From Sneathiella sp. P13V-1 (lineage in GTDB: Bacteria > Pseudomonadota > Alphaproteobacteria > Sneathiellales > Sneathiellaceae), in contig NZ_WYEU01000001.1 in NCBI RefSeq assembly GCF_015143595.1, positions 620,001 to 684,000 of the forward strand: a stretch of DNA of 64,000 nt, given 5' to 3'. Position numbers and translations under genes: made by a program. The notes below the pieces were generated by a model that did no database searches, was not told where the DNA came from, and saw only the letters and a program-made list of their open reading frames with translations. Positions 1,235 through 10,840 of the stretch are shown here, one piece after another. Each line of letters starts with the position of its first letter. The first letter of the stretch is position 1.

Positions 1235-2017
1235 TCAACCTATATCATCCGGCAATCCATCGATCAGGGACATGGCACCCGGATATGTCATCCATCTTAC
1301 AGAAGAATGACCATTTAGAAACGAAAACAGTTTAAACAGAATTTCCCATATGGCGTCATCATGTACCAAATGATGGGATAGGATCCCCGTGGGCTCAAAG
1401 GGATCAGCCGCGCCGGTTCTTTTTGCAATGAGATGCGACAAAACTTGATCCAGGATTTCTTCTTCAGGTAAAGCGCTTCGATGACCCCGCCAAAAGATTG
1501 GATCCACATGCGTGTTTATCAGCGCAACGCGATTACTTGATACCTTATCCGTTTTACGCGCCTTGTAGCTGGAGAGGCCAACAACCCCAATATCTCCAAG
1601 CCTTTCCGTCACAGCATCAGAAATACGGTTCCACGGCGGCACAAAAACGGGCAGGAATTTATCTTCAAACAAAGTCTGCATACGTGAAAGCCCGACCCCA
1701 ATATGATCCAACGCGTCTTCCACGCCCCGACTTTCAGGAAACTCCGATTTCTTTTCCCCGCCTTTGGCCTCGGATTGATGGGTAACCCCGTGTTGAACCA
1801 GCAGACATCCATCAAGGTCATCCGCAATATGCGGGTCAACCCGATCGGGAATGACAGCCAAAGTCAGGGGGATATCAAAATGAGATCTTAAGGCAATTAA
1901 TCGATCAAAAGCCGGGGTCGGTTCATTTAAATCATCGTCACGCCACCAGAAGGTCGCCTTCTTACCATCGGCTTCCCATTGATCCAGTTCTGCCTGCAAC
2001 TGATCCCAGCTTGCCAT
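1235..2017 (-). CDS. NodB-type polysaccharide deacetylase-like protein
   Basis: About 260 residues with the pattern of carbohydrate esterase family 4 proteins: an early acidic motif WWRDDD (catalytic/metal Asp), a His pair in QHGVTHQ (metal ligands) and a PPWNR segment matching the family's third motif. I see no signal peptide, so it probably acts in the cytoplasm. I chose the ATG that forms TAATG with the upstream glycosyltransferase stop; an in-frame GTG six codons upstream is possible but overlaps that gene more. The deacetylase sits between glycosyltransferases, which suggests it trims N-acetyl groups from a glycan intermediate. The substrate is not determinable from sequence. Confidence 0.8.
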   Translation of the reverse strand: MASWDQLQAELDQWEADGKKATFWWRDDDLNEPTPAFDRLIALRSHFDIPLTLAVIPDRVDPHIADDLDGCLLVQHGVTHQSEAKGGEKKSEFPESRGVEDALDHIGVGLSRMQTLFEDKFLPVFVPPWNRISDAVTERLGDIGVVGLSSYKARKTDKVSSNRVALINTHVDPIFWRGHRSALPEEEILDQVLSHLIAKRTGAADPFEPTGILSHHLVHDDAIWEILFKLFSFLNGHSSVRWMTYPGAMSLIDGLPDDIG

Positions 2018-3168
2018 TACCGCGCGCTCATCCACTCTTTTAAGAGATCAGCTGATTTCTCTGCGCCGTTCACATCAATCTCAGCAGATGATGGTGGTCC
2101 TGACAGTGCTTCATCTACCTTTTGAGCCAGCTTCTCCGGTGTCAGGCCATCTTCATCGGCGATATGTAAGACGCCACGCGACGCCAACAGCTCCGCCCGC
2201 ATGGTTTGTTCTGTCTCCACACCCCCGGCGTAAGGCACGATCACAGCTTTACATTTCGCATGAAGGATTTCCATGACGGTATTATAGCCGCCCTGACTGA
2301 TAGAAAGATCACAATTCATCAAAAGGGTCGTGAAATCGCGTCGCGCGCGCTCAACCACCACGCCTTCCGGTGCCATGGATTGCAACTCATCAAATTTCTG
2401 AGCCTCCACAGTGGCACCCACCATCATGCGCCACGTTCTGTCGGAAGCCTGACTTAACTCTCTCGCCTGCATTGCGGTTTTCAACAGCGCTTCACCAACG
2501 GCACCGCCGCCGCTGGATACAATAACTTCACCTTCACCCGGGGCGTCACCCCCGCCTTTCACTCCGGTACGATCCACCACATATCCGGTATATGTGATCA
2601 GATCTTTAATGGCTTCGGTATGAGGGAAGGTCCGATCCAGGGAAATAAGGTCCGGATCACCATGAACCATGACATGATCAAAATATTTGCGAACCAGCGC
2701 CAACATTTCGTCATTGCGACCTGGTTTTGTCTGCGCCACCAGAATGTCACGGACAGACGAGATAATCAGTGGCTTATCTGGATCCGATTTCGCAGCCTCC
2801 AAAAGCGGGAGTAATTCAAACCGCATTTGTCGGCGACCAAAGGGGAAAAGCTCTGTGATCAGGATGTGAGGCTGAACATCTTTATAGATGTCGAGCAAAC
2901 GACCCGCACGCATATCGCGCCAGCCATCGTCAATTTCCTGTCCGTCTTCATCCACAAGTTTCTTGAAAAACAGGTCTGTGGCGCGGGTAGCCGGAAGCTG
3001 AACCAGATCTGCGCCGCCCAAATCAATATCAATGGGATGACCACCGGAGACAACCGTAACATCAAACCCGGCGCGCACAAGATTTCTGGACAAGGTGGCA
3101 GTTCGGCGTAAATGCCCAATCCCGAGAAGATGCTGAACATAAAAGAGAATGCGATACGGTTCCGCCAT
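2017..3168 (-). CDS. MurG-like GT-B glycosyltransferase
   Basis: 383 residues with two Rossmann-like halves. The N-terminal half begins RILFYVQHLLGIGHLRR, a Gly/His-rich loop as in UDP-sugar GT-B enzymes such as MurG. The C-terminal half has a sugar-nucleotide binding region with SQGGYNTVMEIL, comparable to the GGxxT/E motif of MurG, and VPYAGGVETEQ. It probably transfers a sugar from a nucleotide donor onto a lipid or glycan acceptor at the inner membrane. It is not MurG itself: the local context lacks mur/fts genes and length and details differ. The stop overlaps the deacetylase start by one base, and the phosphatase gene ends one base upstream. Confidence 0.8.
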   Translation of the reverse strand: MAEPYRILFYVQHLLGIGHLRRTATLSRNLVRAGFDVTVVSGGHPIDIDLGGADLVQLPATRATDLFFKKLVDEDGQEIDDGWRDMRAGRLLDIYKDVQPHILITELFPFGRRQMRFELLPLLEAAKSDPDKPLIISSVRDILVAQTKPGRNDEMLALVRKYFDHVMVHGDPDLISLDRTFPHTEAIKDLITYTGYVVDRTGVKGGGDAPGEGEVIVSSGGGAVGEALLKTAMQARELSQASDRTWRMMVGATVEAQKFDELQSMAPEGVVVERARRDFTTLLMNCDLSISQGGYNTVMEILHAKCKAVIVPYAGGVETEQTMRAELLASRGVLHIADEDGLTPEKLAQKVDEALSGPPSSAEIDVNGAEKSADLLKEWMSAR

Positions 3169-3169
3169 C

Positions 3170-3754
3170 TTAAGCCTTGCTTTCCAGTTTGATATTCACT
3201 TGTTCGGGATGCGGATGACCCTTTTCATCAATCATAAAAAGGTGGGCCGTCCCCCAATCAAACGCCACAGGAGCTTTGTCCGTCATATCCCAATTATACG
3301 CAAGTGATTTAAGTGCTCGGATCACGCCTTTATGGGTAACCACGATGGAGGGTTCTTGCAGGTTTTTTAAGAAAGGGATCAATCTTTCCTGTACTTCTGC
3401 CGGACTTTCACCACCATTTGGCTTCATATGGCGACCGCGGGCTTCATTTTCTGCCATGGTGGCCCCGTATTTTTCGCGAAGCTCCCGAATGGTGAAGCCT
3501 TCCCAATCCCCAAAATTCATCTCAATCAATTCTTGCGCAACTTCATGATCTTCCCCACCTAACAGTTCAGCCGTTTGACGTGCACGTTTCAAGGGGCTCG
3601 CATACCACTTAAATCCATCAAACCGCTCAGGTAGGGACGCCGCCCTCATTTCCGAAATACCAATCTCGGACAAAGGAATATCGGTCCGGCCTTGCAGCTT
3701 CTTCTGCAAATTCCATTCGGTTTTCCCGTGCCGAATGACAAGTAGGGGGATCAT
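3170..3754 (-). CDS. Histidine phosphatase family protein (phosphoglycerate mutase-like)
   Basis: 194 residues. The N-terminus reads LLVIRHGKTEWN, the RHG phospho-acceptor motif of the histidine phosphatase superfamily, followed by the family's LxGRTDIPLSEIG segment, an acidic residue in MNFGDWEG and the second catalytic His in VVTHKG. This composition resembles the cobalamin phosphatase CobC and PhoE types, but there is no cobalamin gene nearby. Embedded in a glycosyltransferase operon, it may dephosphorylate a sugar-phosphate intermediate (inference). Its ATG overlaps the upstream glycosyltransferase stop by four bases (ATGA). Confidence 0.88.
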   Translation of the reverse strand: MIPLLVIRHGKTEWNLQKKLQGRTDIPLSEIGISEMRAASLPERFDGFKWYASPLKRARQTAELLGGEDHEVAQELIEMNFGDWEGFTIRELREKYGATMAENEARGRHMKPNGGESPAEVQERLIPFLKNLQEPSIVVTHKGVIRALKSLAYNWDMTDKAPVAFDWGTAHLFMIDEKGHPHPEQVNIKLESKA

Positions 3755-4872
3755 TTAACATCCTCTTTCATATAATCGCTTAAGCGATCTGCGGCGGCTT
3801 GCAGACTTCTCTCTTTCGCCACAAAATCTATGGCAGACTTCAACATCTGCTCCCGCAATTCCTGATCATCCAGCGCCTGCCTAATCGCGGAAGCAAGAGC
3901 CGCTATATCATCGGGATCCACCAATATCCCACTTTCACCATCCGCGACGACATCCGGGACTCCGCGGACACGACACGCAATAGAAGGCAACCCACTTCGG
4001 GCTGCCTCAAGGAACGCCATCCCAAAGGCTTCACCTACGGCAGGCCAAACATATAGATCTGCGAATGAGTACAGACTGACCAGTTCCGCCTCAGTTCGGC
4101 GGCCGAGGAAATGGACGCGACTTTCCATTCCTTGAAACAGTTCCCTGATTTCACTTTCTTTTGGACCGTCCCCAACAATCAATAACTGCCAATCATCCCC
4201 TCCGATCAAGGGCAACGTTTTTGACAGTTGCGCAAAGGATTTGAACTTATCGCCGCCTCTTAGCATCCCAACAGACAAAAGGCTCATTCGGTCTAATCGG
4301 CCGCCCGCGTCCAGAACCATAGCGGCCGCGTCCCCTTGCCCATCCGGCTTGGTTTCAATAAAGGGAGGGAAATGAATAAGATGTTTCGGATCCGATACAA
4401 GCTGACCAAGACACGCCCCATCCAACCTGGTCATATGGAAAACACGTGTAGCCTTTTTTATGGCGTTTGCCGCAGCTTTATAACCGCTGGCCCATCTTCC
4501 ATTTTCCTGTTTAGGGGCATGACTTGCCTCAGCGATATAGTAGGGAATATCCAGCGCTTCCGCCACTAAAGGTCCGATCCAGTCCGGTGCCTTGTGATAA
4601 ACATGATAGGTAAAGAAAAGATCCGGCCATGCCTCTTTTGGCTGGTTGCGGTAATTTTCGACTATTCGATGAGCTTCTGCCTCACCTTCTCGCTTTAGGC
4701 GAACTTGCTGGGTCGGATCACCGGCTTTATCGAAACTTCGAAACTCGCTGATGAGCTCTACTTTCGCCCCTGCCCTCTCCAATGCCGCCATAAACAACCG
4801 TGCCATCCGCCGATCCCCGGAAGGGGTCGGGTTGTTCGGTGACTTCATGGGGGCGTAGAAGGCTGTTTTCAC
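3751..4872 (-). CDS. GT4-family glycosyltransferase
   Basis: 373 residues. The C-terminal half has the GT4 hallmarks: LLSVGMLRGGDKF at the start of the donor-binding domain, LLIVGDGPKE, VHFLGRR, and the E-x7-E region GEAFGMAFLEAARSGLPSIA followed by GVPDVV. The N-terminal half begins KTAFYAPMKSPNNPTPSGDRR, an acceptor-domain start. It is a retaining GT-B glycosyltransferase acting at the cytoplasmic face. The start is GTG, overlapping the stop of the upstream GT by four bases (GTGA); its own stop overlaps the phosphatase start. The donor sugar cannot be predicted. Confidence 0.88.
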   Translation of the reverse strand: MKTAFYAPMKSPNNPTPSGDRRMARLFMAALERAGAKVELISEFRSFDKAGDPTQQVRLKREGEAEAHRIVENYRNQPKEAWPDLFFTYHVYHKAPDWIGPLVAEALDIPYYIAEASHAPKQENGRWASGYKAAANAIKKATRVFHMTRLDGACLGQLVSDPKHLIHFPPFIETKPDGQGDAAAMVLDAGGRLDRMSLLSVGMLRGGDKFKSFAQLSKTLPLIGGDDWQLLIVGDGPKESEIRELFQGMESRVHFLGRRTEAELVSLYSFADLYVWPAVGEAFGMAFLEAARSGLPSIACRVRGVPDVVADGESGILVDPDDIAALASAIRQALDDQELREQMLKSAIDFVAKERSLQAAADRLSDYMKEDVK

Positions 4873-6113
4873 GCAAGATCCTTTTCAAACTGGGCCGCGA
4901 GTTTCTCAATCCAATGATCCGCGCCAAACTCTGACCGCAGCTTTTGATCTCCGGCATCACTTAGAGTCTGGCGCAATTGGGGATTGGTTATAAGATCTTC
5001 AAGCCCGCGCGCCAGCGCTTCAGGGTCACGTTCCGAAACCAGTAATCCTGTTTCACCATTATTGATCAGTTCAGGAATGGCCGATACCGCCGTGGAAAGC
5101 GCCGCGGCTTTTTGGCTTTGCGCTTCCATCAGCACATTTGGTAACCCGTCACGATCCCCATCTTCTGCAATACGGCTGGCCAAGGTAAAAATATCCGCTG
5201 CCTGCAGATGCTCCAGAACAAATTTCTGGGACTGGGCGCCGTGCCAACTGATTTTGTCGGTGAGATCTAGTTTTTCAGCTTGCGCTTTCAATTCATCCAG
5301 CAGCGGACCGCCGCCAATATGTTCGAAATGCCAACTTAAGTCAGATGGTAATTTCGCCAACGCGATGAGCAGATCATCATAGCCTTTTTTGATCACCGCC
5401 CTTCCCACAGAAACGATTTTCACAGGATCATTCAAATCATCCCCGTTACGGGTATGTTTTTTGCCTTCCATTACGGGAAAACGATCCAGATCCAGTCCGT
5501 GATAAAGCAGGGATACTTTTTCCGGATTAGAGGCCAGTTTCTTCAAATGGGCCACATTAAATGCGGTACAGGTGACAAGCCAGGAAACATCCTCCAGTTT
5601 TTCGGACAACTCCCAATCGGGGGATGTATAGATATCCTTGGCATGGGCAGAACAGGACCACGGGATATCCCGGATCATCGCCGCATAACGCGCCACAGAG
5701 GCAGGGGTATGCAGAAAATGCGCATAAATCTCGGCTGTGCCTTCTGGAAGTTCTGCCGCCAACACCATTGCCTGACCAAAGCGGCGTACCCGGTTTCGGG
5801 TGGTATCTCTTTTTAAATCCTGCTGCCAAACGGCAAATGCCTTCGCATACCCCCTGAACTTCCGTGCTTTTTTCCACGCGTAATAAACGCGGGCGGGTTC
5901 GTCATGAAGATATTCCGGCAGATAATTTACAGGTGCCGTAATTTCATCATGTATGGGATGCGTCTTTTTGTCTGTTGGATGGCGAAGTGAAATAAAGTGC
6001 AGACTAAATCCGCGCTTTTGCAGCGCCAGCAATTCCTGAGCGATAAAAGTTTCGGAAAGGCGAGGGTATCCTTTAAGAATAACCGTTATGACCTTGGATG
6101 ATAATTGTGTCAC
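4869..6113 (-). CDS. GT4-family glycosyltransferase, first gene of the minus-strand glycan operon
   Basis: About 414 residues from the GTG chosen here, which has GGAAGG roughly ten bases upstream; a TTG ten codons earlier would give 424 residues. The N-terminus VILKGYPRLSETFIAQE is typical of WcaL/exopolysaccharide-type GT4 enzymes, and the C-terminal half has IVSVGRAVIKKGYDDLL, HIGGGPLLDEL and a DGLPNVLMEAQ acidic region followed by ISAIPELINNGETGLLV. It probably adds a sugar to a surface polysaccharide precursor in the cytoplasm. It is the most upstream gene of the operon and diverges from the ABC-like gene across a 227-base gap. Confidence 0.88.
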   Translation of the reverse strand: MTQLSSKVITVILKGYPRLSETFIAQELLALQKRGFSLHFISLRHPTDKKTHPIHDEITAPVNYLPEYLHDEPARVYYAWKKARKFRGYAKAFAVWQQDLKRDTTRNRVRRFGQAMVLAAELPEGTAEIYAHFLHTPASVARYAAMIRDIPWSCSAHAKDIYTSPDWELSEKLEDVSWLVTCTAFNVAHLKKLASNPEKVSLLYHGLDLDRFPVMEGKKHTRNGDDLNDPVKIVSVGRAVIKKGYDDLLIALAKLPSDLSWHFEHIGGGPLLDELKAQAEKLDLTDKISWHGAQSQKFVLEHLQAADIFTLASRIAEDGDRDGLPNVLMEAQSQKAAALSTAVSAIPELINNGETGLLVSERDPEALARGLEDLITNPQLRQTLSDAGDQKLRSEFGADHWIEKLAAQFEKDLA

Positions 6114-6340
6114 CAATTGCAAACCTTCCCAGAAAATAGACAAGGCTATTTGTTAAGGGCTAAGGCCCAGAAATTCAACCGCCATCTTGATCCCGGCCCG
6201 CCAGCTTAATCGTTTTTATCTTCACATGTATAAGCGATTACAAAATTGCCCCTTGCGAATTTCACGAAAAAAATGGAAAACTAAAGAAATAGAAGGGGTT
6301 CTAATAAAATTCACTGGGGCAGAGGGGCTGCGCACAAGGC
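6114..6340. promoter_or_regulatory. Divergent intergenic region between the glycan operon and the ABC-like operon
   Basis: A 227-base gap with no convincing gene. It must hold promoters for both operons. On the minus strand a TTGAAT (complement of 6173-6178) lies 17 bases before TAACAA, a weak sigma-70 candidate leading to the glycosyltransferase GTG. The plus-strand half (about 6200-6310) is AT-rich; I see no strong palindrome. The two operons may be co-regulated through this gap, but no binding site is evident. Confidence 0.4.
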
Positions 6341-8998
6341 ATGGAACACAGTATTTACAAATACATACTGCGTCACAGTAAGAAGCAGCAGATTATCCTC
6401 ACCTTGATGTCATGCGCATCATTCCCGTTCCTCTATTACTATCTTGAACTCCCCAAAATCATCATTGACCAGGCTATTCAGGCGAAAGACATCATCTTCC
6501 CTGTTGAAATTATGGGTTTCGCCATTGATCAGCAGGAATTTCTATTTGTCTCAGTCGCGGCCTTTCTGCTTCTGGTGATCATCAACCAGAGCTTTAAATA
6601 TATGATCAATGTCTATCAGGGGATCACAGGGGAGCGAATGCTCCGCCGTTTGAGATTTGAACTTTATAGTCGCATCCTGCGCTTCCCACTGCCGACATTT
6701 AAAAAGAAAAGCTCAGGCGAGATCATTCCGATGATCACCGCCGAAGTGGAGCCATTGGGCGGGTTTATCGGCGAAGCCTTTGCGCTCCCTGCATTTCAGG
6801 GGGGGTATCTGATCGTTATCATGGGCTTCCTGCTTGTCCAAAATGTCTATATGGCATTAGCTGCGATCGCCCTCTACCCACTACAGGCGTATTTTATCCC
6901 CAAACTGCAACGCAAAGTGAACCTGCTCGGGAAAGAACGTGTACAGAGGGTTCGTGTTCTTTCGGATAAAATTGGAGAAACCGTTGCCGGTGTGCAAGAT
7001 ATTCACGCCCATGACGCTTCCAACTATCTGCGGGCTGGGTTTACCCGTCAGTTGGGCCGCATCTACTATGTGCGCTATCGTATTTACTTGCTCAAATTCA
7101 TCATCAAGTTCCTGAATAACTTCATTCAGCAATTGGGTCCGTTCTTCTTCTATGCCATCGGTGGCACCATGGTCATCGCGGGCGATCTGGAAATTGGTAC
7201 ATTGGTAGCGGCAATTTCCGCGCATAAGGAAATGGCTGCCCCTTGGAAAGAACTCCTCGCCTATTATCAACGCCGTGAAGATGCCCGCATCAAATACGAA
7301 CAGGTTGTTGAACAGTTTGAACCAGCTGGCATTCGTTCCGATGATTATCAAATGGATGAACCTGATCCGCTTCCAAAATTAGAAGGTGAAGTGGTCGCCT
7401 CCAATCTGGTGCTGGCGGATGATACGGGATCTGCACAACTGGAAGGACTTAACCTCCGCTTCAATATGAACGAAAAACTGGCCATCGTCGGTCCTGCGGG
7501 ATCTGGCCGGGATGCGCTCAGCCGTGTCCTCTCTCGTCTTGTGGATCCTGACCGCGGGCAGTTAAAAGCGGGAAGTGTTGATCTTTTAAGTGCACCGGAA
7601 TCTGTTGTGGGTCGCCGCATCGCTTATGTTGGCCAGACAGGATATATCTTTAACGCAACCCTTGGTGAAAACCTGTTGTTCAGCTTGAAGCATCGTCCGC
7701 TTCACGATCTGCAGAACACGGATGACATGGAAGATGATAAAGAATTTTTTGAGAAGGAAAAAATAGAAATCCCACTTACCGGTAATAGTGAGTTTGATTT
7801 CGACAAGGACTGGATCGACTACGAGGGAGCAGGCGTTAGCAACCGCGAGGAATTGGATGCCCGTGCCATAGATGTTTTGGAAATGGTCGGCCTTGGAGAT
7901 GATGTCTATCAACTTGGTCTTCGAAGCACCGTGGATACGGCCCACGATCCATATACAGCCGACCATATTTTGCGGGCACGGCTTCGTTTCTTTGAAAAGC
8001 TGGAAGCGGATCCAACCTTGAAGGATCTGGTGGAGGCGTTCGATCAAAATAAATACAACACCAACGCCACTTTGGGTGAAAATCTGCTATTTGGAACCCC
8101 TGTTGATGGCAGCTTCGACATGGAGCGCCTCGCAGAGAACTCCTACGTTCAAAAGGTGATCGAGGAAGCAGACCTCACCAACACTTTTGTGAAAATGGGA
8201 TATCAGGTCGCCACCTTGATGGTGGAACTGTTCGCCGACCTGCCGCCTGATCATGAGTTTTTCCAGCTATACAGCTTTATCTCCTCAGACGAGCTGCCCG
8301 ATTATCAGGCAATCCTGAGCCGTGTGGACCAAGATCATCTGGAACAGTTACGTGAAGAAGACAAACTTCGCTTTATGTCCCTGCCGTTCAAAGTAATCCC
8401 CTCCCGACATCGTCTTGGTGTGATTACCGAAGATATTCAGGCAAAAATTGTAGAGGCCCGGCACAAGTTTGTGGAAAACCTTCCCAACAGCCTGAAAGGC
8501 CACATTGAGTTCTTTGATCCCGCCGCCTACAACGCTGCCGCAAACATTCAGGATAATATCCTGTTTGGTAAAGTGGCCTACGGCTATGCGCAAGCAGTAG
8601 AGCGGATCGGCACTCTTCTGTCTGAGGTGGTCCGGGAAATGGATTTGAAACGCGCTATCTTGAAAGTGGGCCTCAGCTTCCCTGTAGGTTCCGGCGGAGC
8701 GCGGCTCAACGAAAATCAGCGTCAGAAACTGTGTATCGCCCGTGCGATTATCAAACGCCCTGACATGTTGATTATGAATCAGGCGACAGCTTCTTTCGAC
8801 CATAAGACACAGTTTCATATTCTTGAAAATGTTTTGGCCGAATTTGAAGAACGTACTGTTGTTTGGTCATTGGAGAAAACGGATATGGCCTATCTGTTCG
8901 ATAAAGTTGCTGTTATTGCCGGCGGCACCGTCGAGGATATCGGCAGTTACGAACATATCCATACCAATAACGAACAATTTAAGGCTTTAAGCGCCTGA
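6341..8998 (+). CDS. ABC-exporter-like protein with degenerate ATPase motifs and a triplicated helical insert
   Basis: 885 residues. Residues ~1-310 form an ABC type-I exporter membrane domain (hydrophobic segments near 18-35, 66-86, 150-180, 265-290; coupling motif near GVQDIHAHDAS). A nucleotide-binding domain follows from ~350, but every catalytic motif is altered: Walker A is GPAGSGRD (384-391, Lys to Arg, Ser to Asp), the signature LSGGQ is LNENQ (789-793), Walker B ends MNQ rather than DE (812-814), and the switch His region reads VVWSLEK. About 280 extra residues separate Q-loop (Q432) and signature, containing further copies of the post-Q-loop motif (438-447, 575-585, 734-743). Likely a pseudo-ATPase transporter or a regulated scaffold; function unknown. 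ATG start, followed 21 bases later by a cyclic-nucleotide-binding gene. Confidence 0.85.
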   Translation: MEHSIYKYILRHSKKQQIILTLMSCASFPFLYYYLELPKIIIDQAIQAKDIIFPVEIMGFAIDQQEFLFVSVAAFLLLVIINQSFKYMINVYQGITGERMLRRLRFELYSRILRFPLPTFKKKSSGEIIPMITAEVEPLGGFIGEAFALPAFQGGYLIVIMGFLLVQNVYMALAAIALYPLQAYFIPKLQRKVNLLGKERVQRVRVLSDKIGETVAGVQDIHAHDASNYLRAGFTRQLGRIYYVRYRIYLLKFIIKFLNNFIQQLGPFFFYAIGGTMVIAGDLEIGTLVAAISAHKEMAAPWKELLAYYQRREDARIKYEQVVEQFEPAGIRSDDYQMDEPDPLPKLEGEVVASNLVLADDTGSAQLEGLNLRFNMNEKLAIVGPAGSGRDALSRVLSRLVDPDRGQLKAGSVDLLSAPESVVGRRIAYVGQTGYIFNATLGENLLFSLKHRPLHDLQNTDDMEDDKEFFEKEKIEIPLTGNSEFDFDKDWIDYEGAGVSNREELDARAIDVLEMVGLGDDVYQLGLRSTVDTAHDPYTADHILRARLRFFEKLEADPTLKDLVEAFDQNKYNTNATLGENLLFGTPVDGSFDMERLAENSYVQKVIEEADLTNTFVKMGYQVATLMVELFADLPPDHEFFQLYSFISSDELPDYQAILSRVDQDHLEQLREEDKLRFMSLPFKVIPSRHRLGVITEDIQAKIVEARHKFVENLPNSLKGHIEFFDPAAYNAAANIQDNILFGKVAYGYAQAVERIGTLLSEVVREMDLKRAILKVGLSFPVGSGGARLNENQRQKLCIARAIIKRPDMLIMNQATASFDHKTQFHILENVLAEFEERTVVWSLEKTDMAYLFDKVAVIAGGTVEDIGSYEHIHTNNEQFKALSA

Positions 8999-9019: not shown

Positions 9020-9493
9020 ATGGTGAGCCTGAAGGAAGAGGTAGAAACCCTGCGACAGATCCCACTTTTCGCAAAAGTGGATCCAACCAAGGTTAAGTTG
9101 CTGGCTTTTACGTCCGAGCGTGTCACATATCAGCCCGGACAGATCGTCTGTCAGCAAGGTGAAATGGGAGATGCCGCCTATGTGATCATAAACGGTGAGG
9201 CACAGGTCCTAATCGACACACCATCCGGTCAGATCAATGTTGCAACCATGAAGAAAAATGACGTCGTTGGTGAAATTGCAATCCTGATCAACATTCCACG
9301 TACCGCCACAATTCGGGCGGAAAGTGAGCTTATAACGTTACGCATTACAAAGGATCACTTCCTCAGCACATTGTCAGAGTTTCCTGAAATTTCTGTGGAA
9401 ATGATGCGGGTGCTGGCAGAGAGATTGGTGCGAACGACGGATGAGCTTCAAAAAGCAAAAGAACAACTTCAGAATGCAGGGCTCACTGATTAA
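9020..9493 (+). CDS. Cyclic-nucleotide-binding domain protein (no DNA-binding domain)
   Basis: 157 residues, essentially a single CAP-type cNMP-binding barrel. It begins with the helix ETLRQIPLFAKVDPTKVKLL, then the beta-barrel with GEMGDAAYVIINGEAQV and a phosphate-binding cassette VVGEIAILINIPRTATIRA that retains the Glu and Arg expected to contact the cyclic nucleotide. A C-terminal helix LAERLVRTTDELQKAKEQL follows. There is no helix-turn-helix, so it is not a Crp-type regulator; it probably acts by protein-protein contact. It lies 21 bases after the ABC-like gene with a GGAGTGG ribosome site and probably modulates that protein (inference). Confidence 0.88.
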   Translation: MVSLKEEVETLRQIPLFAKVDPTKVKLLAFTSERVTYQPGQIVCQQGEMGDAAYVIINGEAQVLIDTPSGQINVATMKKNDVVGEIAILINIPRTATIRAESELITLRITKDHFLSTLSEFPEISVEMMRVLAERLVRTTDELQKAKEQLQNAGLTD

Positions 9494-9520: not shown

Positions 9521-10840
9521 ATGGTCCGCCAGTTTCTGGAGTCGTTGCAGGTCTATCTGGACCGACGCGTTATCACAATCCTGCTTTTGGGATTTTCTTC
9601 TGGCCTGCCATTGGCGCTCACGGGGACCACCCTGTCCCTATGGCTTCGTGAGGAAGGGATTACCCTGACTTCCATTGGTTTATTTGCCAATGTGGCAACG
9701 CCATATGCGCTTAAATTCATCTGGTCGCCCCTTGTGGACAAAATGCCGATCCCGCTGTTCAGCCGTTTTCTCGGACGGCGGCGTGGCTGGCTGATATTCA
9801 CACAAATCTGTCTGATCCTGTCCATCTTGGGACTTGGGGCAAGCAATCCGAATATCAGCATTGAAATGACGGCACTGTTTGCCTTTCTGGTTGCCTTTTC
9901 ATCTGCCAGTCAGGATATCGTTATTGACGCCTACCGCGTTGAAATATCGGACGAGAAAACCATGGCAGCGGGGGCTGCGGCCATTGTCTTTGGCTACCGT
10001 ATCGGCATGTTGGCCTCTGGTGCGGGCGCACTTTACCTTGCGTCCTCCGTCAGTTGGCAAATGACCTATAGCATTATGGCCGGTCTTATCTTTATAGGCA
10101 TTCTCACCGTTCTGTTTAACCGCGAACCAGAAAAAGCTGGTGCTCCCGAGCCCCAAGAAAACATGGTGGGTGCAAGCGCGTTGGAAAAAGCTGGTTATTG
10201 GCTGAAAGAAGCCGTTTATGACCCGCTTGCGGAGTTTTTCAAGCGTCCTGGCTGGGTGCCCATCCTGCTTTTTGTGATGCTCTACAAATTCGGGGATAGC
10301 CTTGCCGGGGTGATGAGCACACCCTTCTTTTACGATCTTGGCTTCACAAAAATTGAACTTGCCAATGTCAGTAAGATCTATGGAACCGCCGCGACCTTTA
10401 TCGGGCTGGCCCTCGGCGGTTGGTTGATGGCGGCGACAGGCCTATACCGCACTTTATGGATTTGCGGCTTTCTTCAACTGGGATCCAACTTGATGTTTGC
10501 GGGTCAGGCCATGGCGGGCAACGATATTGTTTTTCTGGCGGCAACCGTTGGCATTGAAAATCTGGCAGGCGGTATGGGAACCGCTGCATTTGTGGCCTAT
10601 CTATCCAGCCTTTGTAATATCAGCTACACCGCGACGCAATATGCCCTTCTGTCATCCTTTATGGCAACGGCGCGGATCTGGTTTTCTTCCCCCGGTGGGT
10701 TTCTGGCGGAACAAACAGGCTGGATCACATTTTTTATCCTGACAACGCTAGCGGCTGTTCCCGGTCTGGTGTTATTATGGTGGCTCACGCGGAAATCCAG
10801 TGAAACGCGCCCGGAAGAGGCGCGGGCTAGCGCCAATTAA
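9521..10840 (+). CDS. AmpG-family MFS transporter (muropeptide permease-like)
   Basis: 439 residues and about 12-14 hydrophobic segments. The N-terminal region ILLLGFSSGLPLALTG and TPYALKFIWSPLVDK is the AmpG family pattern; AmpG proteins import anhydromuropeptides from periplasm to cytoplasm for cell-wall recycling. The loop FSRFLGRRRGWLI corresponds to the MFS motif between helices 2 and 3. It is a strong family assignment but the substrate is not proven; paralogues in this family may carry other glycopeptides or siderophore-like molecules. No ampD, nagZ or beta-lactamase gene is nearby. Gap of 27 bases from the cNMP gene and 31 bases to the acyl-CoA ligase. Confidence 0.85.
   Translation: MVRQFLESLQVYLDRRVITILLLGFSSGLPLALTGTTLSLWLREEGITLTSIGLFANVATPYALKFIWSPLVDKMPIPLFSRFLGRRRGWLIFTQICLILSILGLGASNPNISIEMTALFAFLVAFSSASQDIVIDAYRVEISDEKTMAAGAAAIVFGYRIGMLASGAGALYLASSVSWQMTYSIMAGLIFIGILTVLFNREPEKAGAPEPQENMVGASALEKAGYWLKEAVYDPLAEFFKRPGWVPILLFVMLYKFGDSLAGVMSTPFFYDLGFTKIELANVSKIYGTAATFIGLALGGWLMAATGLYRTLWICGFLQLGSNLMFAGQAMAGNDIVFLAATVGIENLAGGMGTAAFVAYLSSLCNISYTATQYALLSSFMATARIWFSSPGGFLAEQTGWITFFILTTLAAVPGLVLLWWLTRKSSETRPEEARASAN

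Follow-up and report, generated by a model that had tools for sequence, protein, structure and literature searches.

ABC transporters are defined by ATP binding and hydrolysis. In the MsbA, HepA and cyclic-glucan (CGT) type IV exporters a transmembrane domain (TMD) is combined with a nucleotide-binding domain (NBD), and the protein described here has the same architecture. However, unlike in these exporters, its ATPase motifs are all altered, its NBD is longer by about 285 residues and its pattern of conservation is inverted. Degenerate NBD motifs within an exporter fold are also found in TmrAB, TM287/288, TAP, CFTR and SUR. Heterodimers with one degenerate site keep one functional composite site, whereas the present protein lacks the Walker motifs as well as the signature, and, in contrast to heterodimeric exporters and SUR, it carries the docking element three times.

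SbmA/BacA transporters (SLiPTs) are proton-driven and have the ABC TMD fold without an NBD and without coupling helices (PMC13316013). They resemble the present family in having an exporter-fold TMD without a working ATPase; however, our protein keeps a folded NBD and conserved coupling-helix residues, and it sits with glycosyltransferases and a cyclic-nucleotide-binding (cNMP) protein. No sequence kinship between SbmA/BacA and the family was found. A link between a cNMP domain and an ABC exporter is shared with HetC-type exporters and TIGR03896 proteins. HetC-type exporters with a cyclic-nucleotide-binding domain from Nostoc are reported to contain a peptidase (PMC10986499), whereas the proteins studied here lack a peptidase domain and have an apparently dead ATPase. 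In the open-licence literature no published pseudo-ATPase exporter family of comparable kind was found.

The gene was found in a stretch of 64,000 nucleotides from Sneathiella sp. P13V-1 (the window; Table 1), whose 3.7-Mb host genome is alphaproteobacterial and Sneathiella-like. Pfam recognizes ABC_membrane at aa 70-293 of the 885-aa protein and a split ABC_tran domain, the first half of which covers aa 367-470. The AlphaFold2 model has a mean pLDDT of 86.9 and a pTM of 0.81, and its NBD is well folded, with pLDDT mostly >90. Foldseek returned type IV exporters as the best structural neighbours, with CGT among the top matches and SUR structures also matched, and by all three methods the TMD and NBD fold of a type IV exporter is present. 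When solved structures were searched by sequence, the 60 best matches listed were all ordinary ABC exporters. The best NCBIfam scores were 150 bits for HepA and 148 bits for MsbA, against cut-offs of 725 and 602, respectively.

Table 1. Features of the pseudo-ABC exporter gene and its neighbours (window positions).
Feature	Position	Strand	Basis
Pseudo-ABC exporter gene, 885 aa, ATG start	6341..8998	+	intact frame, Pfam, AF2
TMD, six-TM type IV exporter fold, aa 1-325	6341..7315	+	alignment, residue conservation
Degenerate NBD, N-terminal half up to first docking element, aa 350-449	7388..7687	+	Pfam, AF2, hhalign
Degenerate Walker A GPAGSGRD, aa 384-391 (Lys to Arg, Ser/Thr to Asp)	7490..7513	+	family alignment
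Docking-element copy 1 NATLGENLLFS, aa 438-448	7652..7684	+	hhalign to canonical NBDs
Extra segment of about 283 aa inside NBD, aa 450-732, not in canonical exporters	7688..8536	+	Pfam, hhalign
Docking-element copy 2 NATLGENLLFG, aa 575-585	8063..8095	+	hhalign vs copy 3, AF2 helix-strand pattern
Docking-element copy 3 AANIQDNILFG, aa 733-743, in register with signature	8537..8569	+	hhalign
Degenerate signature LNENQ, aa 789-793 (both Gly lost)	8705..8719	+	family alignment
Degenerate Walker B LIMNQ, aa 810-814 (Asp-Glu to Asn-Gln)	8768..8782	+	family alignment
Glu845 at switch-His position	8873..8875	+	family alignment
Cyclic-nucleotide-binding-domain protein, 157 aa, Glu85 and Arg94 conserved	9020..9493	+	Pfam, locus survey
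GT4 glycosyltransferase (EpsE/WcaL-like), divergent, conserved neighbour	4869..6143	-	locus survey
GT4 glycosyltransferase, conserved neighbour	3751..4872	-	locus survey
Histidine phosphatase (branch 1), cluster member	3170..3754	-	locus survey
GT28-like glycosyltransferase, cluster member	2017..3168	-	locus survey
Polysaccharide-deacetylase-like protein, cluster member	1235..2035	-	inspection; no Pfam match

An earlier note, made from the letters of this DNA alone, had described an intact frame, not in simple decay, in which every canonical ATPase motif is altered, and had raised the prospect of a conserved pseudo-ATPase transporter. These claims were borne out. The window protein has no GK[ST] in Walker A, no DE in Walker B, no LSGGQ and no switch His, and the frame is open across 885 codons (6341-8998, plus strand). 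The same motif pattern is conserved family-wide: none of 87 aligned homologues, which are 30-78% identical to the window protein, carries intact GKS, DE and LSGGQ together, which the earlier note had named as a refuting finding, and none has the complete motif set. In a curated alignment of 70 of these sequences, to which all further motif counts refer, Walker A follows the pattern GxxGSG[R/K][E/D], with Arg in 36 rows and Lys in 27, followed by Glu in 32 and Asp in 23. Judged from the alignment, this [R/K][E/D] preference is a conserved replacement and not random decay. GK[ST] was found in only 2 rows and the Walker B DE in 3, the Asp of the latter being replaced mostly by Asn (36) or Ser (19) and kept in 11. 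Pseudo-ATPase status of the whole family is strongly supported by these patterns.

One curated row, L090, has GKS and DE together, without LSGGQ and the switch His, and in the larger aligned set L085 likewise keeps GKS and DE with LSGGQ and the switch His gone. Both proteins (L090 4005-7193, L085 3941-7249) have a fused cNMP domain and may represent intermediate stages on the way to a dead ATPase. A more diverged subfamily from one genome family, f70 (L077 2934-5522, L078 2539-5586, L079 3956-6802), matches mainly from about aa 343 to 813, across the NBD and insert, and its motifs are more degenerate still.

Further genomic analysis revealed a match at E<=1e-25 in 134 of 385 sampled alphaproteobacterial genomes (about one third, counted per sampled genome and not per taxon name, and including a few TMD-only or weak matches). 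Outside Alphaproteobacteria, the genomes sampled across the phylum yielded no more than three matches, all weak or TMD-only. Open, full-length frames are present in more than 100 genomes. Between genome pairs the TMD is 0.70-0.90 identical, the NBD 0.42-0.65 and the insert 0.52-0.74, whereas in an MsbA-type control from the same pairs NBD identity (0.59-0.76) exceeds that of the TMD (0.40-0.71). In one example pair the MsbA-type protein gave 0.59 for the NBD against 0.40 for the TMD, while the pseudo-ABC protein gave 0.42 against 0.70. By these identities, TMD and NBD conservation is inverted relative to the MsbA-type exporter. Moreover, the invariant columns of the curated alignment fall in the TMD and insert and none in the ATPase motifs, and the least conserved columns include those of the NBD. 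As synonymous sites are saturated even in comparisons of congeners, dN/dS is given for computable segments only, and there it was far below 1: the TMD gave 0.02 and the N-terminal half of the NBD 0.06-0.17. One genome, G178, encodes three full-length paralogs (L083, L084 and G178:C1:3342876-3343832), at least two of them with a fused cNMP domain. In another member, L105, a 500-residue N-terminal extension without a Pfam match was trimmed, its frame being probably open by chance.

Within the TMD, the family-specific conserved charges are K86, E145, K252, K256 and K296-E297, and E135 and E137 are also conserved. Canonical exporters encoded in the same genome carry no more than scattered single residues of this set. 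The conserved acids lie mostly in the cytoplasmic half, an assignment that rests on sequence position, the AlphaFold2 models being monomers; an SbmA-like glutamate ladder is therefore not claimed. In full-length members R114, F115 and P116 of the coupling helix are nearly invariant, which suggests that the NBD still matters mechanically.

The earlier note had also stated that residual order and spacing still mark an ABC exporter. The exporter fold stands (Pfam, AlphaFold2), but the spacing does not: from the Q-loop (aa 432) to the signature (aa 789) there are 357 residues, where a canonical exporter from this genome has about 55. This surplus of about 285 residues contains two additional copies of the Q-loop-distal docking element, on which the earlier note was silent. 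The stretch 'TLGENLLFG' corresponds to part of the NBD surface on which, in ordinary exporters, the TMD coupling helices dock (the F508 region of CFTR). In profile-profile comparisons, whose two-profile E-values are indicative, copy 1 (aa 425-448) and copy 3 (aa 715-829) matched the canonical Q-loop/'TIxENIxxG' stretch with probabilities of 95.5 and 99.6, respectively. Copy 2 alone matched this stretch weakly (probability 11); from aa 566 it matched copy 3 with an hhalign probability of 96.9. The AlphaFold2 model places a short helix and a strand at every copy (441-449/450-455, 578-583/585-587 and 736-741/743-745). By these profile matches and this shared pattern, the pseudo-NBD carries three docking elements instead of one.

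Some relatives have no NBD at all. In one draft genome (G346, 91% complete) a syntenic ortholog (L132 2194-3231) ends after the TMD; its glycosyltransferase neighbours are kept and unrelated genes follow. A separate TMD-only clade (L074, L075, L076, L086 and L087; SH-aLRT 99) has a TM0-like helix and six TM helices, and several of its members adjoin a multicopper oxidase, CopB and P-type ATPase or other metal genes. Of the conserved TMD residues, L132 and the copper clade retain K86, E135, E137 (Asp in L132), E145 (D/E), K252, K256, N260 and K296-[D/E]297. A short TMD-only group of about 340-360 aa occurs in several alphaproteobacterial genomes (L088 3413-4444, L089 3071-4153) and keeps K86, E135, E137, E145, K252 and N260. 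Coupling-helix F115 is gone from all TMD-only proteins and P116 from most, and the helices are lost or shortened. The NBD-less relatives are thus similar to SbmA/BacA in the loss of coupling-helix residues, and the TM0-like helix of the copper-island proteins is similar to TM0 of SbmA. With a TMD-only model Foldseek gave low TM-scores of about 0.3-0.4, with SbmA at rank 38. In four of the clade members (L074 3929-5191, L075 3543-4817, L086 2932-4197, L076 2868-4091) the extra N-terminal helix carries two conserved His (H43 and H47 in L074), and their genes neighbour multicopper oxidases, CopB, heavy-metal P-type ATPase or cation efflux genes. The clade is possibly one of NBD-less exporter-fold proteins of copper resistance islands.

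The link to the downstream cyclic-nucleotide protein suggested in the earlier note extends through the family. Of 86 loci, 68 have the cNMP gene adjacent downstream and 8 have it fused to the C-terminus of the exporter; the remaining 10 include several at contig ends or with unclear frames. The predicted ligand residues of the cNMP protein are retained, the phosphate-binding Glu85 in 77 of 81 proteins and Arg94 in 80 of 81. G346, whose exporter ends after the TMD, has no detectable cNMP homologue. From the fusions and this single co-loss, the cNMP protein would act through the pseudo-NBD. On the other side of the gene, 65 loci had enough flank to look for the glycosyltransferase cluster: 46 of them carry it upstream in divergent orientation, and 19 lack it in the flank read.

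We propose, with a probability of about 0.6, that the family is a conserved transporter or flippase that needs no ATP and handles an envelope glycan or glycolipid, the dead NBD being retained as a docked, cNMP-linked regulatory module. As far as sequence allows, the observations fit a conserved type IV exporter-fold family with a dead NBD and the strongest selection on the TMD. Needing no ATP, the dimeric TMD would act as a transporter, flippase or facilitator, and its substrate, suggested by the neighbouring genes only, would be an envelope glycan or glycolipid from the linked enzymes. The dead NBD may still dock on the coupling helices and serve as a rigid module for regulation, which the cNMP protein could use to open the TMD or to lock it. 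More tentatively, and at somewhat below even odds, the family may be a second, independent evolutionary route from an ATP-driven exporter to an ATP-free transporter, caught midway: the dead ATPase would have become a cNMP-controlled lock with triplicated docking elements, and side branches, namely L132 in its unchanged gene context and the copper-island clade, would have discarded the NBD while retaining the TMD chemistry. An exporter family this widespread, devoid of the ATP chemistry but with its architecture, its TMD sequence and a cyclic-nucleotide partner retained, would show the conversion of a primary pump into something else, a question recently approached via SbmA. The family would be a direct test of the mechanical role of the NBD without ATP, and it suggests that the handling of envelope glycans or glycolipids in Alphaproteobacteria includes a cyclic-nucleotide-linked step not yet characterised. 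Its members would probably be labelled ATP-driven exporters by annotation pipelines.

Another way to account for a dead NBD beside an intact and conserved cNMP site, adjacent or fused, is a non-transporting scaffold or sensor. Like SUR in the KATP channel, such a protein would organise or gate the linked glycosyltransferases on cyclic nucleotide and move no substrate, and the linkage to these enzymes and the SUR structures among the Foldseek matches agree with it. However, the most conserved part of the protein is the TMD and not the NBD or the cNMP interface, and TMD-only relatives persist without an NBD and, in G346, also without the cNMP protein. The scaffold or sensor is therefore considered unlikely. 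Relatives without an NBD speak rather for a facilitator or transporter based on the TMD, in which the dead NBD would be a regulatory module.

It was also considered that the [R/K][E/D] Walker A might bind nucleotide without hydrolysis, leaving a nucleotide-gated switch. Several residues that such weak or altered nucleotide use would draw on are retained, among them the P-loop glycine G389 (64/70), the D-loop Asp D820 (59/70), the Walker A Lys (27/70) and the catalytic Glu (31/70), and His is found at the switch position in 18/70; GKS and DE are kept in L090 and L085. Against this, an acid replaces the Mg-coordinating Ser/Thr after the Walker A Lys/Arg in 55/70 rows, the signature GG is missing from 70/70, the Walker B Asp is lost in 59/70, and the least conserved columns include those of the NBD, which makes a nucleotide switch improbable.

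Type IV exporters are obligate dimers in which degenerate halves are common, and the protein could in principle be the inert half of a heterodimer whose active half is encoded elsewhere. The genome has more than 100 ABC_tran matches from which a partner could come, and full-length members conserve the coupling-helix residues. However, with no usable Walker A, Walker B or signature, both composite sites would be incomplete; moreover, no canonical exporter half with intact motifs was found adjacent to the gene in 86 loci, and TMD-only relatives exist. An inert half is therefore improbable. Lastly, a decaying gene or sequencing artefact, which the many altered catalytic motifs might suggest, is ruled out by the conservation data, the low dN, the full-length frames in over 100 genomes, the consistent replacement residues and the high-confidence AlphaFold2 fold.

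Other neighbours of the gene were also recorded. At three loci (L133, L093 and L129) the canonical ABC neighbours are importer-type ATPases. Two of these (L133 1545-3668, L093 6620-8872) have two ABC and oligo_HPY domains and are YejF-like by layout. In Sneathiella the gene after the cNMP gene (window 9521-10840) encodes an AmpG-type muropeptide permease (TIGR00901, 511 bits). AmpG and YejBEF are alternatives for muropeptide import in Alphaproteobacteria (PMC9790009), and a link of the pseudo-ABC family to peptidoglycan recycling is conceivable.
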